Assembly (NCBI RefSeq): GCF_964355755.1 | Contig: NC_092676.1 | Coordinates: forward strand, 6,182,288-6,246,287 | Source of the DNA: Antedon mediterranea | Lineage: Eukaryota; Echinodermata; Crinoidea; Comatulida; Antedonidae | Length of the DNA: 64,000 bases | Direction: 5' to 3' | Shown: positions 8,021 through 61,470 of the stretch, piece by piece | Position numbering within the stretch: the stretch's first letter is position 1 | Layout: every line of letters begins with the position of its first letter | Notes under the pieces: generated by a model | Told to the model about the DNA's origin: nothing | What the model saw: the letters and a program-made list of their open reading frames with translations, nothing else | Database searches by the model: none | Made by a program: the position numbers and the translations under genes

Positions 8021-11000
8021 ATGCCTTTACCAAGACTAACTGGTGCGCTACGAGCTTTCTCATCTGTCTCTGCTGAAGAAAACAGCTCGTTCGATATAGA
8101 CTTGGTGACGAAAAGACAAAGGCAGGCTGAGCAGAAGGAACAGAATGGAGTAACATGGCAGAGGTTGAGAAGCTCATTGGAAAAGACCAGGAATGTGGAT
8201 CATGATGTAGTTGATGGCTTAAGAGAACTGGCTGAAATCTCGAGAGAATTGGGTAAACTCAGGATCTATATATATATTTATCATATAACATCAAATTTAT
8301 TTATTTATTTTATTTGAACAATATTTAATGAGGGTGATCCATCCAGCTGATCATTAGGGACCCTCAAACAATACACACAGTAAATACAAAATAAACTTTT
8401 AAATACAAAATTAACAAAGATAAAAATATATATAAATATACAGTAGGCCAACTATGTAAGAAAGATAATTAATAAATAATATCAGAGAGAGAGAAAGAGA
8501 TGTTTTTTCAAAAGAGATTTAAAGGAGAAGAAATTGTGAGGGTTACGAATGCTTAAAGGTAAAGAATTAAAGAAAGAAGAAGCATTGAAACTGAAAGAAA
8601 GTTTAAAGATATGTTTTAAATAAAATTTTGTAGGCCCCGGTCCTTCTTATTCTTATCTTTATTGCCAATCAAAACAACAACAAACAAACAACTAAAGTAA
8701 GGAACAGGAAGCACAAAGGGGAACTAAATTACAAGAGCACAATGTACAATCAAATAAATTGAAGGCAAGGGTTTTAAATAAATAAATTGTTTGTTCCACA
8801 GTTGGAGCTGATGCTGTACAGACTTTGGTTGAAAGCACTGCTGTGTTCCTTTTTGAAACTTTCAAAGACTGCGAGAGAGTAAGTCAAAAAGAATCATCAG
8901 CCTTGAAGAGAATGCTAGGCCCGTTCCCAGCATCAGTTGCAACAAAAGCATGTGGCATCGTGCAGTCAATCGTGAAGCATATCCCGGAGAAGGTGCTTAT
9001 CAACCTCTTCGAAACCAAGCCAGATAACCGGAAACAATTCGGTGAGAACATTCACTTCTCCTATGACGAGAAAACATTTGATTTATCGTTATTTGACGAG
9101 GAATCCGACGATGAGTCAGCAAAATTTGAGTTTGATATGAAGTATTCTTCAAAGATGGAATCCAAGGTGTCTTCAGCTTTGACCTATGACCTTAATTGGT
9201 TGAGGTCACAGGTTAAGTTGTTCTTTGGTGATGATGACACCACAACTGCTTCAATTGGACTTACAGTTGATGACCTTTGTGTCAAAATTCTTAGTGACCT
9301 GAAGTCTCCAAGCAGCAATGATGAACTTCAAGATGTGGTAAGTTAATAAATGTATTCACATTTCTAATTGTGGCACAATTGTTTGGGTGGTTTACATACT
9401 TGCTTATCAATACCAGGGTTTTTGGTTCAAATCCTGTCTGGAAATTCTAACATTGTCAATCAGATGCCTCTATGTACAGTATACTTAACTCATTAATATT
9501 TAAACTTCATATACATACAGTACTGTACCCCTTTTGTAATTGCATTCATTCTGATATGCCTAAATTAATGCTCTGTCTACACAGTATCAAGCTTTATGTG
9601 ACAAAAAATGTGATATGCCCATATGGATATGGTGATGTCATATTACTATCATATTTGAGCATATCACTACCATATTTGGGCACACACTTTTTGTCCAACT
9701 AGTTTGATAGTGTAGACAGAGCTTTATACACAGTAAATCCTGTCGTTAAAAAGATAAAAACCAATAGCCCTTTCACATTGCCTACCAAACTTGAAACCAG
9801 TGAATCAACTACACTTTGTATACTGTGTGTTGTAAACTCATGTGTTTTGCTAGGCAGTGTGAAAAGGGTATTAATTTGTCCTTATGGTTTTAGAATGTTC
9901 ACTGTGTGAATCCCATTTTATGTCAAAGGCAATGACTTTCACATAAATTGATTTGATACTGTACTACCACTACTGTGCATCAGGAAATCAATTTATTTGA
10001 TAAGGTAACTGTGTACAATTTATTGATTAATTTCAGCTTTTTGGTTTCCTTGGTTTTGAAAGATTTGAATTTATCCAGAACCTGTTAACAAACAGGAAGC
10101 ATATTGTTGAAGGAAGCAATGAAATGCTAACAAAAAGAGGTAAAGTAGTGCCGTTGTGGTCTGGTAGCTTGCCTACAAACCCAAAGTCCTTGGTTCTATT
10201 ACATATAATTTGGGGTTGTTTTTTTTTCAGTTGTAAAGGAGGAAAAACCAGTCAGACCAAATTATGGGGCACAAGTAACAGTACAGGTAAGGCACCATTG
10301 TGAGCATTTTATTGGAATCACTTACAGTATTGGGGTATAAAGCTCTGTCTACACTATCAAATTTTATGTGACAAAAAAATGTGATTTGCCCATGTATATG
10401 GACATGATGATGTCATATCACTACCATATTTAGGAAAATCACTTCCATATTTGGGCACATAATACTTTTTTTGTCAAACTAGTTTGATGTGTAGACAGAG
10501 CTTAATGTATGTTTGATTCATTGACATTATTCATGTTGCAGGTTTTTAAGAAGGTTATTATCCAGATTCCAGGGTACATTCCTGTGTTGAAATACTGTCT
10601 GCTAGTGTTACCATTTTGAATCCAATATTTATACTGTGTACTTTTATTTGTAACTTTGTTTCATGACGGTGTATTTGGCCCTCAAATACTTACAAAACAT
10701 GAACATAAAGCAAGAAAATAATGAATCAATCCATCATCACAATAATCTTACGTAGCTGCAGGAAGTGACCAGAGATTTCCAGTTACCTTGGACATACTTT
10801 TATTTGTTGAGCCATCCAAAATTGTCTTTAAAGCAAGTTGCAACATTAAATTAAGTTAGAAATCCTAAATCCTGCACTACATTTTGATAGCTTTTGGCAA
10901 TGGAATGGTATAACGTTTTGACGTCACATTATAGTGCTCTTTTATAATAACATTAATGTTGATCAAGTTATTTCAGAGAAAGCGGATACTGTTAATAAAG

Positions 11001-14000
11001 AAGAGTGATATTAATTGTCTGTATAACATTGACTTGCCAATAGTCTCTTTACACTGATTACTGACCTATATTATATTGATACTTAATTTATTCATGTACT
11101 TTGCAATTGGTGCAAGTAGAACGATTTCTATTAAGTCTGGAATGAATGAACAATCAAGAAATTATATTTTAAACAGAACACAGTTTTAGAATGTGTCAGG
11201 TGGAAAAGTAGACTAATTATATTAATCATTATTGACAGTACATTCTTGCACTTTATTGATTCAGATATAAGCCCAAGCTTCAGTTTTCTCTATGTATACT
11301 GTAAGCCACATCCAGTATAAGCCCACCTCCACTGTAAGCCACTTCCAATATAAGCCCACCTCCACTACAAGCCCACCTCCAGTATAAGCACACCTCCAGT
11401 ATAAGCCCACCACCAGTATAAGCCCACCTCCAGTATAAGCCCACCACCAGTATAAGCCCACCTCCAGTATAAGCCCACCTCCAGTATAAGCCCACCTCCA
11501 GTATAAGCTGACATCCTTATTTACCAATCACATTTGTATTGTCCCCCAAAAACATGAAAAATAAAAATTAATAAAATCAGATTTTGAATAGATTATTTTG
11601 TAGAAAAAAAATGGAAATAATTAATGTTTTCACTATAAAATTACATGGTTAATGGTTAAATTCAACCAAAAACCCATTGGCTGGCAGCCAATTTGACTAT
11701 TTTTAGCTTTAAATTACATTTTTTTAGGTAAATACTTTTTTTTTAATCCAATTTTTGGTCAAAGTGGATAACTATTTGGTGACATTAAAATGGCATATTC
11801 AACAAAAAAAATTTTAAGAATTAGATTTTCAGGGGGACAATACATAGAGATATAGAGATATTTCCCTAAATATTAAGTATTTCACTTAACTCTATAAATA
11901 TTTCAGGATCTGCCACTGTTTATATATTTGGTCTGTATCTACTAAATAAATGTATGTTTAATTTACATTAACTGTAAAAGAAAAACTTAAAGTAGGTCTA
12001 ACCATGTAATTATCATTTTTACATAAATTATATTGTTCGAAAACAATATGAGGAAATGACGATTCAACGTCAGAGGTAAAAACAAACCGCATAGCACATT
12101 AATGAGAATTAAAAAGGGTATTAACATTGTAATATTATTCCGTTATTAGGAAATCAAATCATGATATAACCAGTTTAAATTTAATTGTAAAAACCTACAG
12201 AATGAGTCTAGTCTTCTCATTATTAGTACAATTTTCAACGGAAGTTTACGATAATATTTAGGAAGTAAAGAAATACAGAGCCCCTTGTGGGAGAAGTTGG
12301 CCACCTGATGTGTGTTTAGTGTATTACACAATACAGATCGTCTCAATGTGCCAAGTGAACTAAATGTTGCACGTTCTTAGTCTGCTTTCCTATGTTCATG
12401 TCTATGCAGCACCAATAGACAGAGGACATGAGTACCAGTACACTAGGGTAAGCCTTTCCTATGGTCTATGTAGCTACTTTGGGTACGTCTCTTCAATCAC
12501 AGGGGACATGAGTACCAGTACACTAGGGTAAGCCTTTCCTATGGTCTATGTAGCTACTTTGGGTACGTCTCTTCAATCACAGGGGACATGAGTACCAGTA
12601 CACTAGGGTAAGCCTTTCCTATGGTCTATGTAGCTACTTTGGGTACGTCTCTTCAATCACAGGGGACATGAGTACCAGTACACTAGGGTAAGCCTTTCCT
12701 ATGGTCTATGTAGCTACTTTGGGTACGTCTCTTCAATCACAGGGGACATGAGTACCAGTACACTAGGGTAAGCCTTTCCTATGGTCTATGTAGCTACTTT
12801 GGGTACGTCTCTTCAATCACAGGGGACATGAGTACCAGTACACTAGGGTAAGCCTTTCCTATGGTCTATGTAGCTACTTTGGGTACGTCTCTTCAATCAC
12901 AGGGGACATGAGTAAAGGTACACTAGGGTAATTCTTGAAAAGGGCAAATAAGCGTGTACAGTGTATCAACGGTTTACATCCAATAGACTTTCTATCACAA
13001 GATGCCTCCAGCCTTGAGTTCTTGCCATTTTGGCTCTAAGTGTGGTGTATTGACTTCTGTTCTTTATTTCTTGGCTCCAGTTTTGATTTCATAGTTTCCT
13101 TACTCTACCATAATTCCTTGGCTCCCATTTCTTGGTTTATTTAAACAAGGCCATATACAAAAATGATATTAGTAGATAAAAACAAAAATCCACATTAAAT
13201 GTGTATTTCAATTTAACAGGGCCAGCATGAGTTTGACATTTTCAATTTTCACCACCCACCTCGATTCCCCAACACAGATCGCCATATTTTATATCAATAA
13301 ATATATAGCGTCTGTTTTTAACCTCTAGCTTTAACCTTGATTTAATCTTTTTATTTTATTGAAAAATTATATTTTGAGTATCCCATTCGAAAAGTACTTT
13401 TAGATTGAATAAAAGAATAAATATATTTGATAATAATAATGCTTCAGTCGAAGAATTCAAGAAATAGTTTATAAATAAATTAAAACTATAGCTCTGTCTA
13501 CACTATCAAACTAGTTTGACGAAAAAAGTGTGATGTGTCCAAATATGGTAGTGATATGCCCAAATATGGTACAGTAGTTATATGACATCATCCTTCTGTC
13601 TTTATATAAGTTGGACACATCACATTTTTTGTTACATAAACTTTGATAGTGTGGACACTTCACAAACATGTAAAACAATCTCTATGCACCCCATAAAAAC
13701 ATTTTCTGAAAAATCGATGAAACTCCATGATATAATTATGATGGACACTTCTTTCCTTAGAGGAATTATCTTTAAAACTGCGCCGGGATGTACTATAATT
13801 CCCTCATGAAAAACGCATTTGCAGGTACATACATATATACATATTGATCATTGCTTTAATAATGAAATCATAGTTGTGCACTGTGAAGTTTTTCCCCAAT
13901 ACATCCCTGTATTGTGTGCTTGTTGAGATTTAACAAACTCATCTAATATTATAAGCATGTTTACAGCATAGATTGTATCTTCTATAGTTCAAATAGGGTT

Positions 14001-16797: not shown

Positions 16798-19700
16798 GTA
16801 ATGTTTTTTTTGTAATACTATATATTTACATATATCTATATAATCACCAGAGGCACGGAACAAATTCTAAACCCCCGGGTGATATACTGAAAATGTATTT
16901 ATTTTAAACGATAATATGAGGACATCTGTGAGAATCAGAAAAATATACATATATCTTTTTTCCTTTTTTATCATTCGTTTTTCGTGTTTGTATCGTTCCT
17001 GTTCTTTAAGTGTTGAGGGCATGTCAGCCTCGGCTGTTATGAGTCACCCTCATTAAACAAAGTTTAATAAAACATAAAATGTATTATATTCATAGTATAT
17101 TATTAAATTAAATGGAAAAGTCCACATTGAATAGTGTCATGTACGCCAAAATTGAAATTTCTTCCAACTGCAGATAGCACAATTAGCATTTAAAAATACA
17201 AGGGCACTGAACCGTATCCAGTCTGTAGTTTGCGATGCAGCTTACAACACCAACGAGAACCTGTTGATTAGCGCCCCCACAGGTGCTGGTAAGACCAACA
17301 TTGCGATGTTAACTATATTACGAGAGATTAAACAACATATAGAACAGGGTGTTATTAAAAAGGATTCATTTAAGGTTTGATACATTTTTTTATTTACATA
17401 ACTATTTGTCTTTAAATTTATAGTTTTAAGTTTCTCTCTATTCCTAACAACTAATTCACATAATATGTAAATAATTTAATCAATTGAATCCAAGCCTTTT
17501 ATCCAGTACACTTTTTTCCTCATATACCCATCCCAAACATGACCCAATGTTTGAGTTAAGTGGTCCTTTATTTTATAGATTGTAATGCCAAAAAAAAAAA
17601 TAAAAAAACGCTAAGGACCATATGTTTCAGATAATATATGTAGCACCTATGAAAGCTCTTGCTGCTGAGATGGTCAGGAATTTTGGAGGACGTTTGTCCC
17701 CACTGGGAATCTCTGTAAAAGAACTGACCGGTGATATGCAACTGACCAAGGCTGAAATAATGAAAACTCAAGTAAGAATCAGAATCTATTTAACTGTCTT
17801 CATTTAAATTTGATGATAGTAAATATTAAAGTTTTTTCACTGCCCATAAACCACAATTTAGATGACATAGTCATGAGGATACATTCTTTAAAGCTCTATT
17901 AAACTAGTTTGACAAAAAAGTGTGAGGTGCTCAAATATGGTATTGATATGTCTTTGTGTCCATATATGAGCACATCACATTTTTTTTGTCAAGTTTTATA
18001 GTGTAGACTAAGCTTAATACATGAGTTTATTCTGACCCAAAACTGATATTTTTCTAATAACCAGTGATACCATCACTAAAAGCTGAATTGTGCTTTTGGC
18101 GTACCGTACATTAAAAAATAGAAAAATAGCTTTTGGCGTACCGTACATTGAAAAATAGAAAAATAGCTTTTGGCGTACCGTACATTGAAAAATAGAAAAA
18201 TAGCTTTTGGCGTACCGTACATTGAAAAATAGAAAAATAGCTTTTGGCGTACCGTACATTGAAAAATAGAAAAATAGCTTTTGGCGTACCGTACATTGAA
18301 AAATAGAAAAATAGCTTTTGGCGTACCGTACATTGAAAAATAGAGAAATAAAGATAGATAAAAATGCATCAAATTGATTGTTAACAACATCCTATTACCT
18401 TCTTGTTAATTGTAGAATCATAATAATTGCAATGGGATTGTACAATGTGTAGTATAATCTGGGGTAGAGGGTTGTTTTGGGTATAGTTTTGCTTAGGATA
18501 TTTAGATATGTTTTTCACTGAAATGGTCTAAAATATTATGAATATAGATGTTGGTGACCACACCAGAGAAGTGGGATGTGGTAACAAGAAAGAGTACAGG
18601 CGATGTGGCTTTAACTCAACTGGTTAAGCTGTTAATTATTGATGAGGTTCATCTACTTCATGAAGACAGAGGAGCAGTCATTGAAAGTCTTGTGGCTAGA
18701 ACACTAAGACAGGTAAATTAGTATACAGTTACTGCAGTCATTGAAAGTCTTGTGGCTGGAACACTAAGACAGGTAAATTAGTATACAGTTACTGCAGTCA
18801 TTGAAAGTCTTGTGGCTAGAACACTAAGACAGGTAAATTAGTATACAGTTACTGCAGTCATTGAAAGTCTTGTGGCTAGAACACTAAGACAGGTAAATTA
18901 GTATACAGTTACTGCAGTCATTGAAAGTCTTGTGGCTAGAACACTAAGACAGGTAAATTAGTATACAGTTACTGCAGTCATTGAAAGTCTTGTGGCTAGA
19001 ACACTTAGACAGGTAAATTAGTATACAGTTTCTGCAGTCATTGAAAGTCTTGTGGCTAGAACACTAGACAGGTAAATTAGTATACAGTTACTGCAGTCAT
19101 TGAAAGTCTTGTGGCTAGAACACTAAGACAGGTAAATTAGTATACAGTTACTGCAGTCATTGAAAGTCTTGTGGCTAGAACACTTAGACAGGTAAATTAG
19201 TAATATACAGTTACTGCAGTCATTGAAAGTCTTGTGGCTAGAACACTAAGACAGGTAAATTAGTATACAGTTACTGCAGTCATTGAAAGTCTTGTGGCTG
19301 GAACACTAAGACAGGTAAATTAGTATACAGTTACTGCAGTCATTGAAAGTCTTGTGGCTAGAACACTAAGACAGGTAAATTAGTATACAGTTACTGCAGT
19401 CATTGAAAGTCTTGTGGCTGGAACACTAAGACAGGTAAATTAGTATACAGTTACTGCAGTACTGGTTGATTACTGTAAGAATAGCAAAGGTACAGCGCTG
19501 TTGAATGCAGTGAATGACCAGTACTAATTTGTATTTATAATATTCTTTAGACTATATATATCTTTACTCTTTTTAAAAGTTTTACTAATGATTTTTATTT
19601 TATTTTATTATATTTATATTTTTGCTTTATGTACACGACAACAAACGATCAAATAACAGTTTTTCACATTGCAACTTATACAACGTAATTTTGAAAACTA

Positions 19701-22700
19701 CAACCATTTTTCTATATACATACAAGGTACATTTCTAGTCTAACAAAAACATTTTTCTAAACTTTCTATTATTTAAAAGTCGAAGATAGCCAGGTCTCGG
19801 GTCCATTCTATTGTCGTCACAGATTGATATCTTCATCAGTACTTCTATGAATGGATGATTAGGTGGGAACACGAACGCTAGTTGATCATACCCAGTACCG
19901 TTTTGATCGTACGATTAATCGGGAAACCACCTCACGAGCATGGAGGAAATATATCTGTATATGCTCAGAGTTAACAGATAATGTTACAGATAACAATAGA
20001 TATACCATACATTCTAACATAAAAAGTGATGTGCTTAAAAATAAATGATCTAAAATTGTTCACGTGATCAAACAATAATGATTTTTATTTTAAAATTTGA
20101 ACATTTTATAGACTCTAAGTTAAGCTACATCATCAAATTAAGTGTTCTAAAATATTGTACCTAAACGTCTATATTTTGTGTTTTTAATGCCATTCCTCTA
20201 TAGATATATATTTCTTTCTAAAACAAAAATTCTTATTTTGCCATTCTTTTAATGTAATAAAAATTAAACTATATTTAACCTTTTAAAGCTTTGTCTACAC
20301 TATGAAACTAGTTTGACAAGAATAGTGTGATGTGGCCAAATATGGTAGTGATATGCCCAAATATAGTAGTAATATGACATCATGTCCATATATGGGCACA
20401 TCACATTTTGTTGTCACATAAAGTTTGATAGTGAGACAGAGCTTTTATGTTTTTTAACCTGCATTTCAGGTGGAGTCGTCTCAAAGTATGATCCGTATTA
20501 TTGGTCTGTCAGCCACACTACCTAACTACCTTGATGTGGCTAGGTTCTTGAATGTCAATCCATACGCCGGACTATTTTATTTCGATGGAAGGTTCCGGCC
20601 TGTGCCATTAGGTACTACGTACATCGGTATCAAAACTAACAATATAATGCAGCAGAGGCAGGATATGGATAACGTCTGCTACGAGAAAGTGTATGATGTC
20701 GTAAAATCAGGTCAGCAGGTAAGACCTCATTTCATTTCATATTGTTTATATATCCATCAACATCTATGGCAGTCTAATTCCCAGAAACATTGTAGAGTTG
20801 CTTGTATATATGTATCATTGGCTGATAAATTTATTTTGTTTTCGATTAATCAATAGAAGTTGTGCTGTATATGTTTTCATTATTAGTAAAATGTAACAAT
20901 GTTTGTACAACTAATAAGCATAGGTTTGATGATGTGTTGGTCCTCTTCATGGGCACCTAAATAGCTTCAGGCATCATCATCAAAGAAACACTTTAAAAGT
21001 TCAATAATACATATTACAAACTACCAGACTGGTTCCCAAATTCCAAGTAGCATTATTTGTTACAGATGCCAGTTATGCCTCTAAAAATAAAATGACCGTT
21101 TCCTTTCATTGTGTATTATAACTAACATGTTGTTGTTATCTATTACAATTTCTTATTACCAGGTTATGGTGTTCGTTCATGCTCGTAACGCCACTGTACA
21201 TACAGCAATGAATCTAGTGGATATAGCTAAAAACCAAGGGCAGGCTGAGATGTTCCATGCTAAGCCATCACCACAGTATGGAAGTGCTCAAAAACAGGTA
21301 GGCCTAGAAGAAAGTTTTATATAAAAATAAGAAATGACAAAATTGTTCCATTGAAAACATTTTTAAGGGATGATCTAGTAATCAAATTTCTTCATCCATA
21401 GCAACATCGCAAACAAATGCTTGTTTATTTAATAAATAATAATTCTCAATTCAAATCTCAATTATACATTTGTTAAGGTTTCCCGATCAAGAAATAAACA
21501 GTTACGAGAGTTGTTCAATGATGGCTTCTCCATCCATCATGCGGGAATGCTTCGGCAAGACAGAACGATGGTTGAAAGGCTTTTTGCTGAAGGTCACATC
21601 AAGGTGTTATGCTGTACTGCTACTCTTGCTTGGGGCGTCAACTTACCAGCACATGCTGTCATAATAAAGGTAGACTATTAAAAAAATAAATTTGTATAGC
21701 AATGTAGATCAATGTAGTACAACAGCAGGAAAGTCAACTGAAACTAAGTATCTGTCAATGACGGCCATGTGTCTTGAGAAGAAGACGGCTACAAGAACAG
21801 TATTGAACAGTATGAATCCAAGAAAACAGTTAATATGACTAAAATAATTTAAGCTTATTAAAAAGAACACAGACTTATGGAATTTAAGGGTATGATAGTT
21901 AGCAAGGAGCTACACATTGCCCTGTGGTGGTAGGAAGTTTCACCATGCCTTACCATAATTGTGAAATCAAACATACTGTATTTAAAAGTCTTAAACAAGT
22001 GTTGTGCGATATTACATTTTTATCGATTGTGTCTGTTGTGTAGAGTTTGAAATTAGTATCATGGTTTAATGTTCTTTTGATTCCAGGGTACACAAATATA
22101 TGATGCACAGAAGGGTGCTTTTAAAGACCTGGGAATTCTGGATGTCCTGCAGATCTTTGGTCGTGCAGGGCGCCCTCAATACGATACTCATGGCGAAGGA
22201 ACAATCATCACAACTCATGATAAGCTGAACCACTATTTATCGTTAATGACAAGGCAGAACCCAATTGAGAGTCAGTTTATTGAGAACTTAGCAGACAATC
22301 TCAATGCAGAGGTTAGGTTTTAGTATTTTTTAATTTCTTTATGAGATGCTCTTCTTGAAAACAAAGTAGAATATAAATATGGTTGTTCACAGGTTGCCCA
22401 TACAAACAGTGAATAATATGATATATTAAACGACTATTACAGGGCCCCTCGTCAGAATATGCTGTTAAGGGTTACCCTCTTTGAATAATATTTAATAAAA
22501 AAAATATAAAAAGAGGGTAGATCTAGTAAACTATAAATTGAAATCAACCCAGTGTTAAGCTCTGTCTACACTATCAAAATAGTTTGACAAAATGATGTTC
22601 CCAAATATGGTAGTGATATGATATGTCCATATATGGTCATATCACAAAGTTTGGTAGTGTAGACATGTTTTAGTTAAACAAAATAAACAAATTTGTTTGT

Positions 22701-54544: not shown

Positions 54545-55230
54545 TACTCGTATCCGGATATTCACCCCCTGGACATTTACCCCCCGGAAAACTACCCCCC
54601 GGACAACCACCACCTGGACCACTACCCCCTTTAGGACAACTACCCCTTTAGGACAACTACCCCCGGACAAATACCCCCCGGACAACAACCCCCTTAGGAC
54701 AACTACTCCCTTAGGACAACTACTCCCTGGACAACTACCCCCGGACAATTACCCCCTAGGAACAATTACCCCCCCGGACAATAACCCCCGGACAATTACC
54801 CCCCCCCCCCCTCCCGGGTAATTACCCCGCGGACAACTACCTCTGACACAATACTCCCCGTAGGACAACTACTTCCTGGACAATACTCCGAGGGCAAATA
54901 ATCTTTTAGGACAACTACCTCCGTAGGACAACTAGCCCCTGGACAACTACCCCCCGGACAATTACCCCTAGGAACAATTACCCCTGACAATTACCCCCCG
55001 GCGATTCCCCCCCCCCCCGGGTAATTACCCCGCGGACAACTACTTCTGACACAATACTCCCCGTAGGACAACTACCTCCTTGACCTGGACAATACTCCGA
55101 GGGCAAATAATCTTTTAGGACAACTACCTTCGTAGGACAACTAACCCCTGGACAACTACCACCCAGAAAAATATCCCTTTAGAACAACTACCCCCCGGAC
55201 GGACAACTACCACCCAGACCATTCAACAAC
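54545..55230. repeat. C-rich minisatellite (GGACAACTACCCCC)n with higher-order repeat
   Basis: Degenerate 14-bp units GGACAACTACCCCC. From about 54800 a longer unit of roughly 205 bp (GGGTAATTACCCCGCGGACA ... GAGGGCAAATAATCTTTTAG ...) is repeated once at about 55017. The complementary strand is G-run rich. ORFs are artefacts. Confidence 0.93.
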
Positions 55231-57829: not shown

Positions 57830-58078
57830 TTGGGGGGGGGGGGGTGGTAGTTGACCGGGGGTAGTTATCCTAAGGGGGTAGTTGTCCTAAGGGGGTGGTT
57901 GTCCGGGGGGTAGTTGTCCGGGGGGTTGTTATCCTAAGGGGGTAGTTGTCCTAAGGGGGTAGTTGTCCGGGGGGTAGTTGTCCGGGGGGTAGTTGTCCGG
58001 GGTGTAGTTGTCCTAAGGGGGTAGTTGTCCGGGTGGTAAACATCCGGGGGGTAACTGTCTAGGGGGTAGGTGTCCTAG
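57830..58078. repeat. G-rich minisatellite (GGGGGTAGTTGTCC)n
   Basis: Exact reverse complement of the 54.5-55.2 kb unit; about 16 copies. Both arrays start from a TTCTAGGA word at their outer edge (54529 region; inverted at about 58071-58080), so they look like arms of one inverted duplication. Confidence 0.93.
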
Positions 58079-59767: not shown

Positions 59768-60585
59768 GAAGTGTAGACGATGGTTCTCGGAATGATAATG
59801 TTCTCCTTATACATTTTCTGTCGGTTACCATTATTGAAAATGCTTGACATTCGTAAAACTAAACTACTTTGTTTCACAGTGTTTTAGATGATTAATAACA
59901 TTTTAAAGTATAGTTTTTATTGTTTGGTAGGGCCCTTTGGGGAGGCGGAGGTCATTTGAGGGAGGTGCTTATTCGAGGGATATATGTTAAATGTTTTAGT
60001 TCTAATAATATGGTAACATTTATAATCAAATGAAATCCTCTCATATATATGAAAAGTGGTAAAAAAGAATAACAAATGCTTGGTAAATTGCAGATAACAG
60101 TGCGGTGAATTCTACTACAAATAGTATAATTGTGTTATTATAAATATGTGGATGGACGTTTATTAGATAGTTGGGTTGTGGGGGGGGGGGGGAGTTATTA
60201 TTCAAAGTGATTTTTTATTGGAGAGGCGTTTATTCAAATGAATACCATCCTAATAATTATTAGTACATTATTTAATTTAATCATCTTTTGAAACTAACTG
60301 CCGTGACAGAGTGGGCCCAAGAAAGAAGACATTACGGCTTGCAACATGGGCAGACATCTCGGGACACAGGAAGATAGCCTACAGTTATTCCTGCAAGCTT
60401 ACTCAATAAAACTCAGCTATCGGGATTTCACTCGAAAAATGTCTTATCAAATCTCCCTATGTAATTTTATAATACTATTCCCCACAATATATTCTGATTC
60501 TTTATGGCGTATATTTAATTTGATCTTTATTAATTTGCAGTATAATTCCTATTATTTAACTACTGTACCTTCACACACGTGTGGT
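59768..60585. other. Gene-free spacer
   Basis: Includes GGAGGCGGAGGTCATTTGAG and GGAGAGGCGTTTATTC short repeats and a 13-G run near 60180. No exon recognised. Confidence 0.5.
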
Positions 60586-61470
60586 ATGTTTTAAAATAAA
60601 CAAAAAACTGAAATGGCTATGATTAATGGCCAATTTTTTTTTCGTCTTCCAAAGGGACACTGTATTGATTGATGGAAAGTGCCTGTTTCCAGTCACCTTT
60701 AGGGTCAAATCTATTATTTTAACTGCTCCCTTGTGTATAAAAGAAAGAAAATATTTGAAACTAAGGTGAACTTATCTTAAACCCGGAAATTACTTTGACC
60801 GGGAAGAATTGAAATTGAGAGGAAAATCCAATGTTGAAATCATAAATGTTGTTATAAAAATCTTTATAATATCTTCCTAAGATATAAATATGGAACAATA
60901 GCGTCGGCGTGCACACTAATGTTATCAAATCTACGTTTCGCGGTACATCTCGGATAGATAAGGTAGGTATCCAAGGCGGAGATTTGTACCGAAGTTTTTG
61001 CATTGTGCTCGCCTATGTCAGAATTAATATGTTTTAAAATAAACAAAAAACTGAAATGGCTATGATTAATGGCCAATTTTTTTTTCGTCTTCCAAAGGGA
61101 CACTGTATTGATTGATGGAAAGTGCCTGTTTCCAGTCACCTTTAGGGTCAAATCTATTATTTTAACTGCTCCCTTGTGTATAAAAGAGAGAAAATATTTG
61201 AAACTAAGGTGAACTTATCTTAAACCCGGAAATTACTTTGACCGGGAAGAATTGAAATTGAGAGGAAAATCCAATGTTGAAATCATAAATGTTGTTAAAA
61301 AAATCTTTATAATATCTTCCTAAGATATAAATATGGAACAATAGCGTCGGCGTGCACACTAATGTTATCAAATCTACGTTTCGCGGTACATCTCGGATAG
61401 ATAAGGTAGGTATCCAAGGCGGAGATTTGTACCGAAGTTTTTGCATTGTGCTCGCCTATGTCAGAATTAA
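60586..61470. repeat. 443-bp tandem duplication
   Basis: 60586-61028 and 61029-61470 are almost identical (a handful of single-base changes, e.g. TTATAAAAATC versus TTAAAAAAATC). ORFs in it are mirrored in both copies and resemble nothing I know. Confidence 0.97.

Follow-up and report, generated by a model that had tools for sequence, protein, structure and literature searches.

The ASCC3 locus and its exon-end array

The window, meaning the whole 64-kb stretch of DNA that was analysed, contains a gene for ASCC3. Both exons that flank the array described here match human ASCC3 (Table 1), in agreement with the gene name given in a first-pass annotation of this DNA, and its label 'exon 10' for the array-bearing exon is also the number reached in a by-eye count of coding pieces. 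When the human ASCC3 sequence was used as a probe, ordered matches were found from 8.0 to 41.1 kb of the window, and three further weakly conserved ASCC3-like pieces were seen by eye, two of them around 10.0-10.3 kb and the third around 15.7 kb. The assembly that was searched comprises 354,431,138 bases in 18 contigs, with C1-C11 of 22-41 Mb and C12-C16 of less than 0.6 Mb, and its genes point to an animal. The array-bearing exon was matched once in it, and the sole other match is a 51%-identical relative on C8, presumably BRR2/SNRNP200. Because one copy was found and the matches to the human protein lie in order along the gene, ASCC3 looks functional. The exon encodes conserved ASCC3 residues up to its donor and the next exon carries the protein on. 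The array lies within one intron that is flanked by two conserved exons, and the last 39 nt of the upstream one would have founded it.

Tandem Repeats Finder, run on the 64-kb window, reports this array with a period of 60, 13.1 copies and 97% matches, and a script split it into 13 head-to-tail units with starts at 18674, 18734 and so on to 19396. Ten of the 13 units measure exactly 60 bp, copy 7 has 59 bp, copy 9 has 63 bp and copy 13 consists of 60 bp plus a trailing GCAGT; with indels allowed for, the length is 13 x 60 + 5. Each unit is composed of 39 nt of exon (GCA to CAG, 13 whole codons in phase 0) followed by 21 nt of intron. The earlier proposal of a unit built from exon plus intron was therefore correct in kind, while its split of 36 + 24 was off by three. 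The donor CAG/GTAAAT (CAGGTAAAT) is kept in all 13 copies, which confirms the reported row of 13 near-identical donors, and the sequence TTACTGCAG lies upstream of 11 of the 12 internal copies, with TTTCTGCAG upstream of copy 7.

Copy 1 has the consensus sequence. Across the whole array, copies 2, 6, 7, 9, 11 and 13 depart from it, by 6 substitutions in all together with the loss of 1 bp in copy 7 and the gain of 3 bp in copy 9. Copies 2, 11 and 13 share one A-to-G change, and copies 6 and 9 share one A-to-T change, a recurrence that would be the expected trace of block duplication or of exchange between copies. Such near-identity fits the recent growth that had been suggested for the array. 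A two-unit query found a single locus, on C7, in the 354-Mb assembly, and the 115 nt downstream of the array matched only themselves, in a search that can miss weak matches. A mobile element or dispersed satellite was rejected as the source of the array, since the unit and the downstream stretch were matched nowhere else in that search. The 66 bp past the array appeared palindromic by eye and were considered as an inserted element, a candidate that was dropped because this stretch matched only itself. The predicted RNA fold of three units was no more stable than that of shuffled sequences (z -0.80).

Table 1. Features of the ASCC3 locus (positions in the window) and of arrays at other genes of the assembly; a slash marks the splice junction
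Feature	Position	Strand	Description	Basis
ASCC3 coding exon	18548..18712	+	165 nt, 55 aa; helicase cassette 1, DEVH box; ends in phase 0	PDB 8alz_B E 1.7e-37; Pfam DEAD; translation
Next ASCC3 exon	20470..20718	+	249 nt (multiple of 3); acceptor tttcag/GTGGAG	PDB 8alz_B E 5.9e-40; boundaries set by hand
Minisatellite	18674..19460	+	13 copies, 60-bp unit	Tandem Repeats Finder; copy table; unit matched only here in assembly
Copy 1	18674..18733	+	Real exon end and native donor (GT 18713-18714)	
Copies 2-13	18734..19460	+	Intronic; 12 further CAG/GTAAAT donors	
GT of copies 2-13	18773, 18833, 18893, 18953, 19013, 19072, 19132, 19192, 19255, 19315, 19375, 19435	+		
GCAGT, exonic half	18674..18678	+	Presumed founding microhomology	Sequence; inference
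GCAGT, intronic half	19456..19460	+	Presumed founding microhomology; unique intron follows it	Sequence; inference
TAG	18719..18721	+	In frame whenever a donor past the first is used	
GOPC exon-end array			11 donors, 27 or 31 bp apart	PDB E 1.5e-22
ABCC-family transporter exon-end array			8 sites, 58-72 bp apart, 2 without GT	PDB E 5e-5
DNAH3-like dynein exon-end array (L024)	C1:19363306-19368754		68 bp, about 80 units by coordinates, 5.4 kb	E 6.3e-15 to DNAH3
DHX8 exon-end array			Mostly 37 bp apart, 9 donors in piece fetched	PDB E 1.1e-20
STAT5-like exon-end array			Tenth case, via acceptor search; 68-69 bp apart, 9 donors in piece fetched	E 6.9e-12; Pfam STAT_alpha 3.7e-10
DDX54 acceptor-side array				E 1.3e-12
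RFC2 acceptor-side array				E 2e-13
ABCA-like C-terminus, acceptor-side array				Pfam R1_ABCA1 E 1.2e-4, below its cut-off
L045 acceptor-side array	C1:22507592-22507970		28-bp units, about a dozen by coordinates, then open 93-residue frame	

Splice signals within the array

As a yardstick for splice signals, 29 donors and 28 acceptors of ASCC3 were used, with boundaries set by hand and one of the 29 acceptors unplaceable. The donor shared by the native site and the array ranks 8 of 29 among these donors, itself included, so the native donor is strong, and because of this rank copy 1 needs no help. The first-pass annotation had also offered an alternative to its regulatory proposal, in which a strong native donor operates and the array is tolerated, and this is the better-supported half of that annotation. 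The native acceptor of the array-bearing exon (18548) is moderate, with a score of 4.79 on a native leave-one-out range of 0.3-14.1; because of this moderate score, definition of the exon may be fragile.

Within the array, the weight-matrix score of the TGCAG acceptor in the common unit is 1.27, lower than those of 27 of the 28 native acceptors and equalled or exceeded by 819 of the 3,439 AGs in the window. This scoring covered 8 of the 13 TGCAG sites; variant sites upstream of copies 7 (2.25) and 10 (1.57) score slightly higher, and the final site, where the array ends, scores lower (-0.58). The preceding AG lies only 9 nt upstream of that of the TGCAG, against a native minimum of 15 nt among the 28 acceptors. 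The unit holds a second AG, preceded by ATAC, whose score of 4.01 falls inside the native range and which has another AG 7 nt upstream of it. In addition, the distance from donor to acceptor between neighbouring copies is 25 nt, whereas none of the 28 introns measured is shorter than 139 nt. The internal acceptors thus seem poor, and the weak score, the crowding of AGs and the 25-nt intron argue against the earlier suggestion that the sequence before each copy could serve as an acceptor by which internal units are spliced in.

The consequences of misuse can be read from the frame. Translation confirms that a later donor would read GTA AAT TAG, with the stop that had been predicted (Table 1). 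Downstream of TGCAG, 11 of the 12 internal copies have a stretch of 35 nt, and copy 7 has one of 34 nt. Inclusion of such a stretch would shift the frame, as had been stated, and would do more than that: read in the frame that continues from the native donor, 10 of the 12 contain a stop (all except copies 6 and 9).

Exon-end arrays at other genes

The assembly was searched for three copies in tandem of each of three donor words, CAGGTAAGT (at periods of 39-69 and of 70-99), CAGGTAAAT and AAGGTAAGT. Among the matches listed, 24 distinct repeat families were recognised (6 + 8 new for CAGGTAAGT, 5 for CAGGTAAAT and 5 for AAGGTAAGT), one flank of each was inspected, and nine of these families were judged to adjoin a coding exon end on the correct side. 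A database homologue was found for five of the nine, namely ASCC3, GOPC, an ABCC-family transporter, a DNAH3-like dynein and DHX8, and a STAT5-like array was added by the acceptor search described below (Table 1). The ABCC and DHX8 exons rest on PDB chains, with no Pfam match at E <= 1, and the best PDB match of the dynein exon is labelled malate dehydrogenase, a chain whose 4069 residues, together with neighbouring DNAH matches, identify it as dynein. The other four donor-side families (L014, L028, L037 and L043) were counted by a protein-like open frame on the correct side; presumably L037 is PEX3-like and L043 CFAP54-like. Rows left out on the donor side as non-coding-looking, although their frames were of comparable length, were L012 (37 aa), L015/16 (36-38), L018 (37), L020 (121) and L038 (43).

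The three acceptor words yielded 38 families among the matches listed (6; 14 besides the STAT array; 18). A homologous exon start adjoins three acceptor-side arrays, those of DDX54, RFC2 and an ABCA-like C-terminus, and L031, L045 and L053 were counted by open frame alone; rows left out include L032 (68), L057 (58) and L048 (52, a coding-type internal repeat). No Pfam match above cut-off was obtained for L031, L045 and L053 or for the four donor-side families counted by frame (the scan took in 60 residues of L053 and the first 60 of L045). The counts of nine (donor) and six (acceptor) are therefore soft, while five and three rest on database matches. Among the matches listed, 9 of 24 donor families versus 6 of 38 acceptor families gives a Fisher p = 0.07, and we make no claim of a firm donor-side bias over the acceptor side, the words differing in specificity; another figure for donor versus acceptor, p = 0.007, was set aside because it compares unlike criteria.

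In control searches, the one-base control word CAGATAAGT produced 3 repeat families versus 6 for CAGGTAAGT at the same spacing. In comparisons with backwards words, which count matches and not families, CAGGTAAGT gave 79 against 18 at periods 39-69 and 53 against 9 at periods 70-99, and CAGGTAAAT gave 162 against 77, whereas AAGGTAAGT went in the opposite direction (144 against 1,342); the acceptor words gave 18 against 46, 72 against 62 and 129 against 92. Real donors raise the CAGGTAAGT word count anyway, and no claim is made that donors are enriched in arrays.

Exon-end arrays recur at several conserved genes of this genome, so the ASCC3 array is not a one-off. The arrays have from 3 to about 80 copies, with units of 27 to 79 bp. 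In one of them (L028), the unit comprises about 59 nt of exon and 2 nt of intron; a strong donor, AAG/GTAAGT, is seemingly created by the repeat junction, and the last copy enters a weaker AAG/GTTAGA. Across the ten exon-end arrays, with the frame assumed in the four arrays identified by eye, eight would meet a stop inside the retained sequence if the next donor were used, and all ten would meet one if the third site were used. The exceptions to the former are GOPC, where the next donor adds 27 nt in frame with no stop, and the DNAH gene, where the frame is shifted with no early stop. In the ABCC array the second site lacks GT, and the next usable one, the third, meets the same early stop. Most misuse of a later donor would accordingly be predicted to be wasteful, and GOPC would be the one gene where it is not hidden by decay.

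Two other tandem repeats carry splice-like signals. One (L018, C11:839562-839846) has a 69-bp unit with a pyrimidine-rich tract and then CACAG immediately adjoining GTAAGT, and resembles tandem recursive splice sites. The other (L003:1157-1486, minus strand) consists of 78-bp repeats with TATCCAG/GTAAGT, in which divergent copies mostly retain the donor, and has a partial copy near 1900.

Comparison with known splice-junction repeats

The closest relatives of the ASCC3 array in the literature found are human. The 31-bp VNTR of CBS is named c.1444_1467+7(16_21), which denotes a unit of 24 exonic and 7 intronic nucleotides in 16-21 copies (PMC2630376), and for these repeats at the exon 13/intron 13 boundary more copies are described as going with lower CBS activity (PMC5188458). 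As in that VNTR, the ASCC3 unit consists of the 3' end of a coding exon plus the start of the intron, with a donor in every copy; unlike the 31-bp, polymorphic and activity-linked CBS repeat, the ASCC3 array has a 60-bp unit (39 + 21) in 13 copies and is known from one assembly. The VNTR in intron 18 of ABCA7, the closest case studied, has a 25-bp unit that starts with the native donor GT, is present in 23.7 repetitions in the reference, lies in a C-rich region and has one allele of 9.7 kb (PMC5954066). According to the same report, retention of a single unit amounts to 2 +/- 1% in the tissues compared, retention and nonsense-mediated decay (NMD) are independent of length, and longer arrays show more skipping of the next exon (exon 19), with 33% less mRNA between extremes (PMC5954066). 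ABCA7 shares with ASCC3 an array that adjoins an exon and repeats the native donor in each unit; in ABCA7 that donor forms the first two bases of the array, and use of the next donor breaks the frame (PMC5954066). In contrast to ASCC3, the ABCA7 unit is described as intronic, donor GT included, and as lacking any exon body, and splicing was measured there, where the ASCC3 case is one of sequence (PMC5954066). As in the CBS and ABCA7 VNTRs, the native 5' splice site belongs to the ASCC3 unit, with 13 of 13 donors intact, and the exon-adjacent copy keeps both exon and donor.

Other duplications across splice junctions show what may follow from them. In CBS 844_845ins68, a 68-bp duplication of the intron 7/exon 8 junction creates two equal splice sites, and splicing is said to favour the distal one strongly, which makes the duplication harmless in the mRNA (PMC2630376). 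With its two copies and intron-to-exon junction, this case is nearer to the DDX54 and RFC2 acceptor-side arrays than to ASCC3. For human segmental duplications, a 2009 study describes minisatellites expanded at exon-intron boundaries, going from 162 alignments to 27 intron modifications after manual inspection (PMC2812944); those concern recent paralogues with units that average 30 bp x 4, whereas ASCC3 is a single-copy conserved gene with a longer unit. In the potato RdRp gene, a tandem duplication across the boundary is reported to have made a new intron (PMC4974935). The ASCC3 block likewise crosses an exon-intron boundary, but no new intron would be expected from it, the old one being lengthened.

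The ASCC3 array therefore joins the known CBS/ABCA7 type, and the interesting part is recurrence: a type represented by isolated human cases in the literature found can recur within one animal genome, and no description of many such arrays in one invertebrate genome was found in open-licence PubMed Central text. Arrays of this sort would often escape gene predictors and the mapping of short reads. In addition, 13 donors with nine identical bases and near-identical surroundings, which differ mainly in their distance from the exon, constitute a natural test of 5' splice-site choice, and RNA-seq for the species, if it exists, could answer how a choice is made among equal donors without new experiments.

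Probable origin and tolerance of the ASCC3 array

We consider it probable, at roughly three chances in four, that this is a young minisatellite that was seeded across the 5' splice site at GCAGT, is tolerated, and is removed with the intron from copy 1. This reading builds on the anatomy of the array, the absence of a second copy among the matches found, the intact exon, the equal donors, the poor internal acceptors and the similar arrays at other genes, and the low retention of single units in human ABCA7 (PMC5954066) speaks for it as well. An exonic GCAGT and a second GCAGT 60 bp further along, in the intron, would have bounded a tandem duplication, and this founding duplication would then have expanded to 13 copies; a length of 13 x 60 + 5 is the expected trace of tandem duplication between such 5-bp words. 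With a duplicated block that extends across the exon end into the intron, the exon-adjacent copy would keep the exon and its donor intact while later copies become intronic. The exon would be defined by the first donor (18713) and most probably joined to 20470, and occasional use of a later donor would place a stop two codons on, so that nonsense decay would be predicted to clear the message. The array would then be a tolerated and fairly neutral repeat, of a kind that recurs in this genome.

Placement at a junction is not surprising in itself. Of random placements of a 60-bp unit in the exon-rich part of ASCC3 (16672-37525), 15.6% cover a junction and 7.9% a donor; the former figure would be lower if the long introns at the 5' end of the gene were counted in. 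ASCC3 contains three arrays (at 12419, 18092 and 18674) that have 5 or more copies of a unit of 25 bp or more, and the whole window contains four; 11 fixed-position 10-kb stretches on C1-C11 (110 kb) contain two. Because 15.6% of random placements cover a junction, one junction-spanning array among three is unremarkable and no special targeting is needed.

Some points weigh against this reading. A 5-bp microhomology may arise by chance; the donors are equal, so that the first has no advantage in sequence, only its nearness to the exon; and the link seen in human CBS and ABCA7, where activity or expression falls as copies increase, may count, by analogy, against neutrality.

Alternative explanations

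That link is the basis for the most substantial competing view, length-dependent control of dosage, in which longer alleles yield less ASCC3 protein, either through competition among the copies for U1 snRNP or through an effect on how the next exon is spliced; such control need not be selected and may be a mild burden. The architecture is that of CBS, in which more repeats accompany lower activity (PMC2630376; PMC5188458), longer ABCA7 arrays accompany more exon-19 skipping and less mRNA (PMC5954066), and skipping of the next ASCC3 exon, at 249 nt, would stay in frame. The first-pass annotation had proposed that copy number could tune ASCC3 output through nonsense decay of misspliced messages, and such tuning is possible in view of the human precedent. 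Yet unit retention and NMD are reported as length-independent in ABCA7, so that the proposed route is not what was observed there (PMC5954066), and a conserved DNAH gene in this genome bears an array of about 80 units. We regard control of ASCC3 dosage as rather unlikely, and its generalization, in which splice-site minisatellites form a genome-wide class at conserved genes (helicases, dynein, STAT, transporters), the spliceosomal helicase DHX8 among them, with copy number as a fast-mutating, heritable dial for the splicing and dosage of many genes together, as improbable. The microexon branch of the earlier annotation fares worse than its human-precedented regulatory idea. Each unit does have an AG before it and a good donor after it, and its second AG scores within the native range, so internal units might act as tiny exons (35 nt) that give poison-exon or microexon isoforms; however, the weak TGCAG, surpassed or equalled by so many AGs of the window, the spacing of only 7-9 nt between AGs and introns far below the native minimum make this very unlikely.

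An assembly artefact, with the array absent or of another length in the animal, is comparably far-fetched. Such errors are usual at near-identical copies, but 787 bp is short for long reads, the changes scattered over six copies depart from perfect repetition, and similar arrays occur at several other loci. Finally, the array might be retained for its many U1 sites, which would reinforce definition of the exon or shield the intron from early polyadenylation, as 13 intact donors could suggest. Intact donors are expected of young copies, however, and two of the eight sites in the ABCC-like array lack GT, which indicates that donors are not guarded as a rule, so this idea is scarcely credible. 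A young, tolerated minisatellite remains the preferred reading of the ASCC3 array.

Other repeats in the window

Three arrays of near-identical copies lie in a stretch of about 7 kb inside ASCC3. An 80-bp x 6.4 array with 99% matches (12419-12931) is located in an ASCC3 intron, and its unit contains an acceptor-like CACAG and a donor-like AGG/GTAAGC, so that it looks like a tandem pseudo-exon; it was considered as a second exon-end array of ASCC3 and rejected, since the by-eye pieces near 10.2 and 15.7 kb place it in mid-intron. A 37-bp x 7 array, also with 99% matches (18092-18350), ends about 200 bp upstream of the array-bearing exon.

Elsewhere in the window, a 21-bp word similar to GTGATATGCCCAAATATGGTA, or its complement, forms short arrays at 9639, 13530, 16569, 20322, 25452, 30916, 33017 and 37794, and apparently forms the core of a dispersed element whose ends are inverted, as at about 20290-20440. 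Arrays of GGACAACTACCCCC and its reverse complement lie at 54564-55194 and 57842-58077, and the same family is found in a sampled stretch from another chromosome (L006:1235-1652). At 60585-61470, a 443-bp segment is tandemly duplicated with 99% matches.
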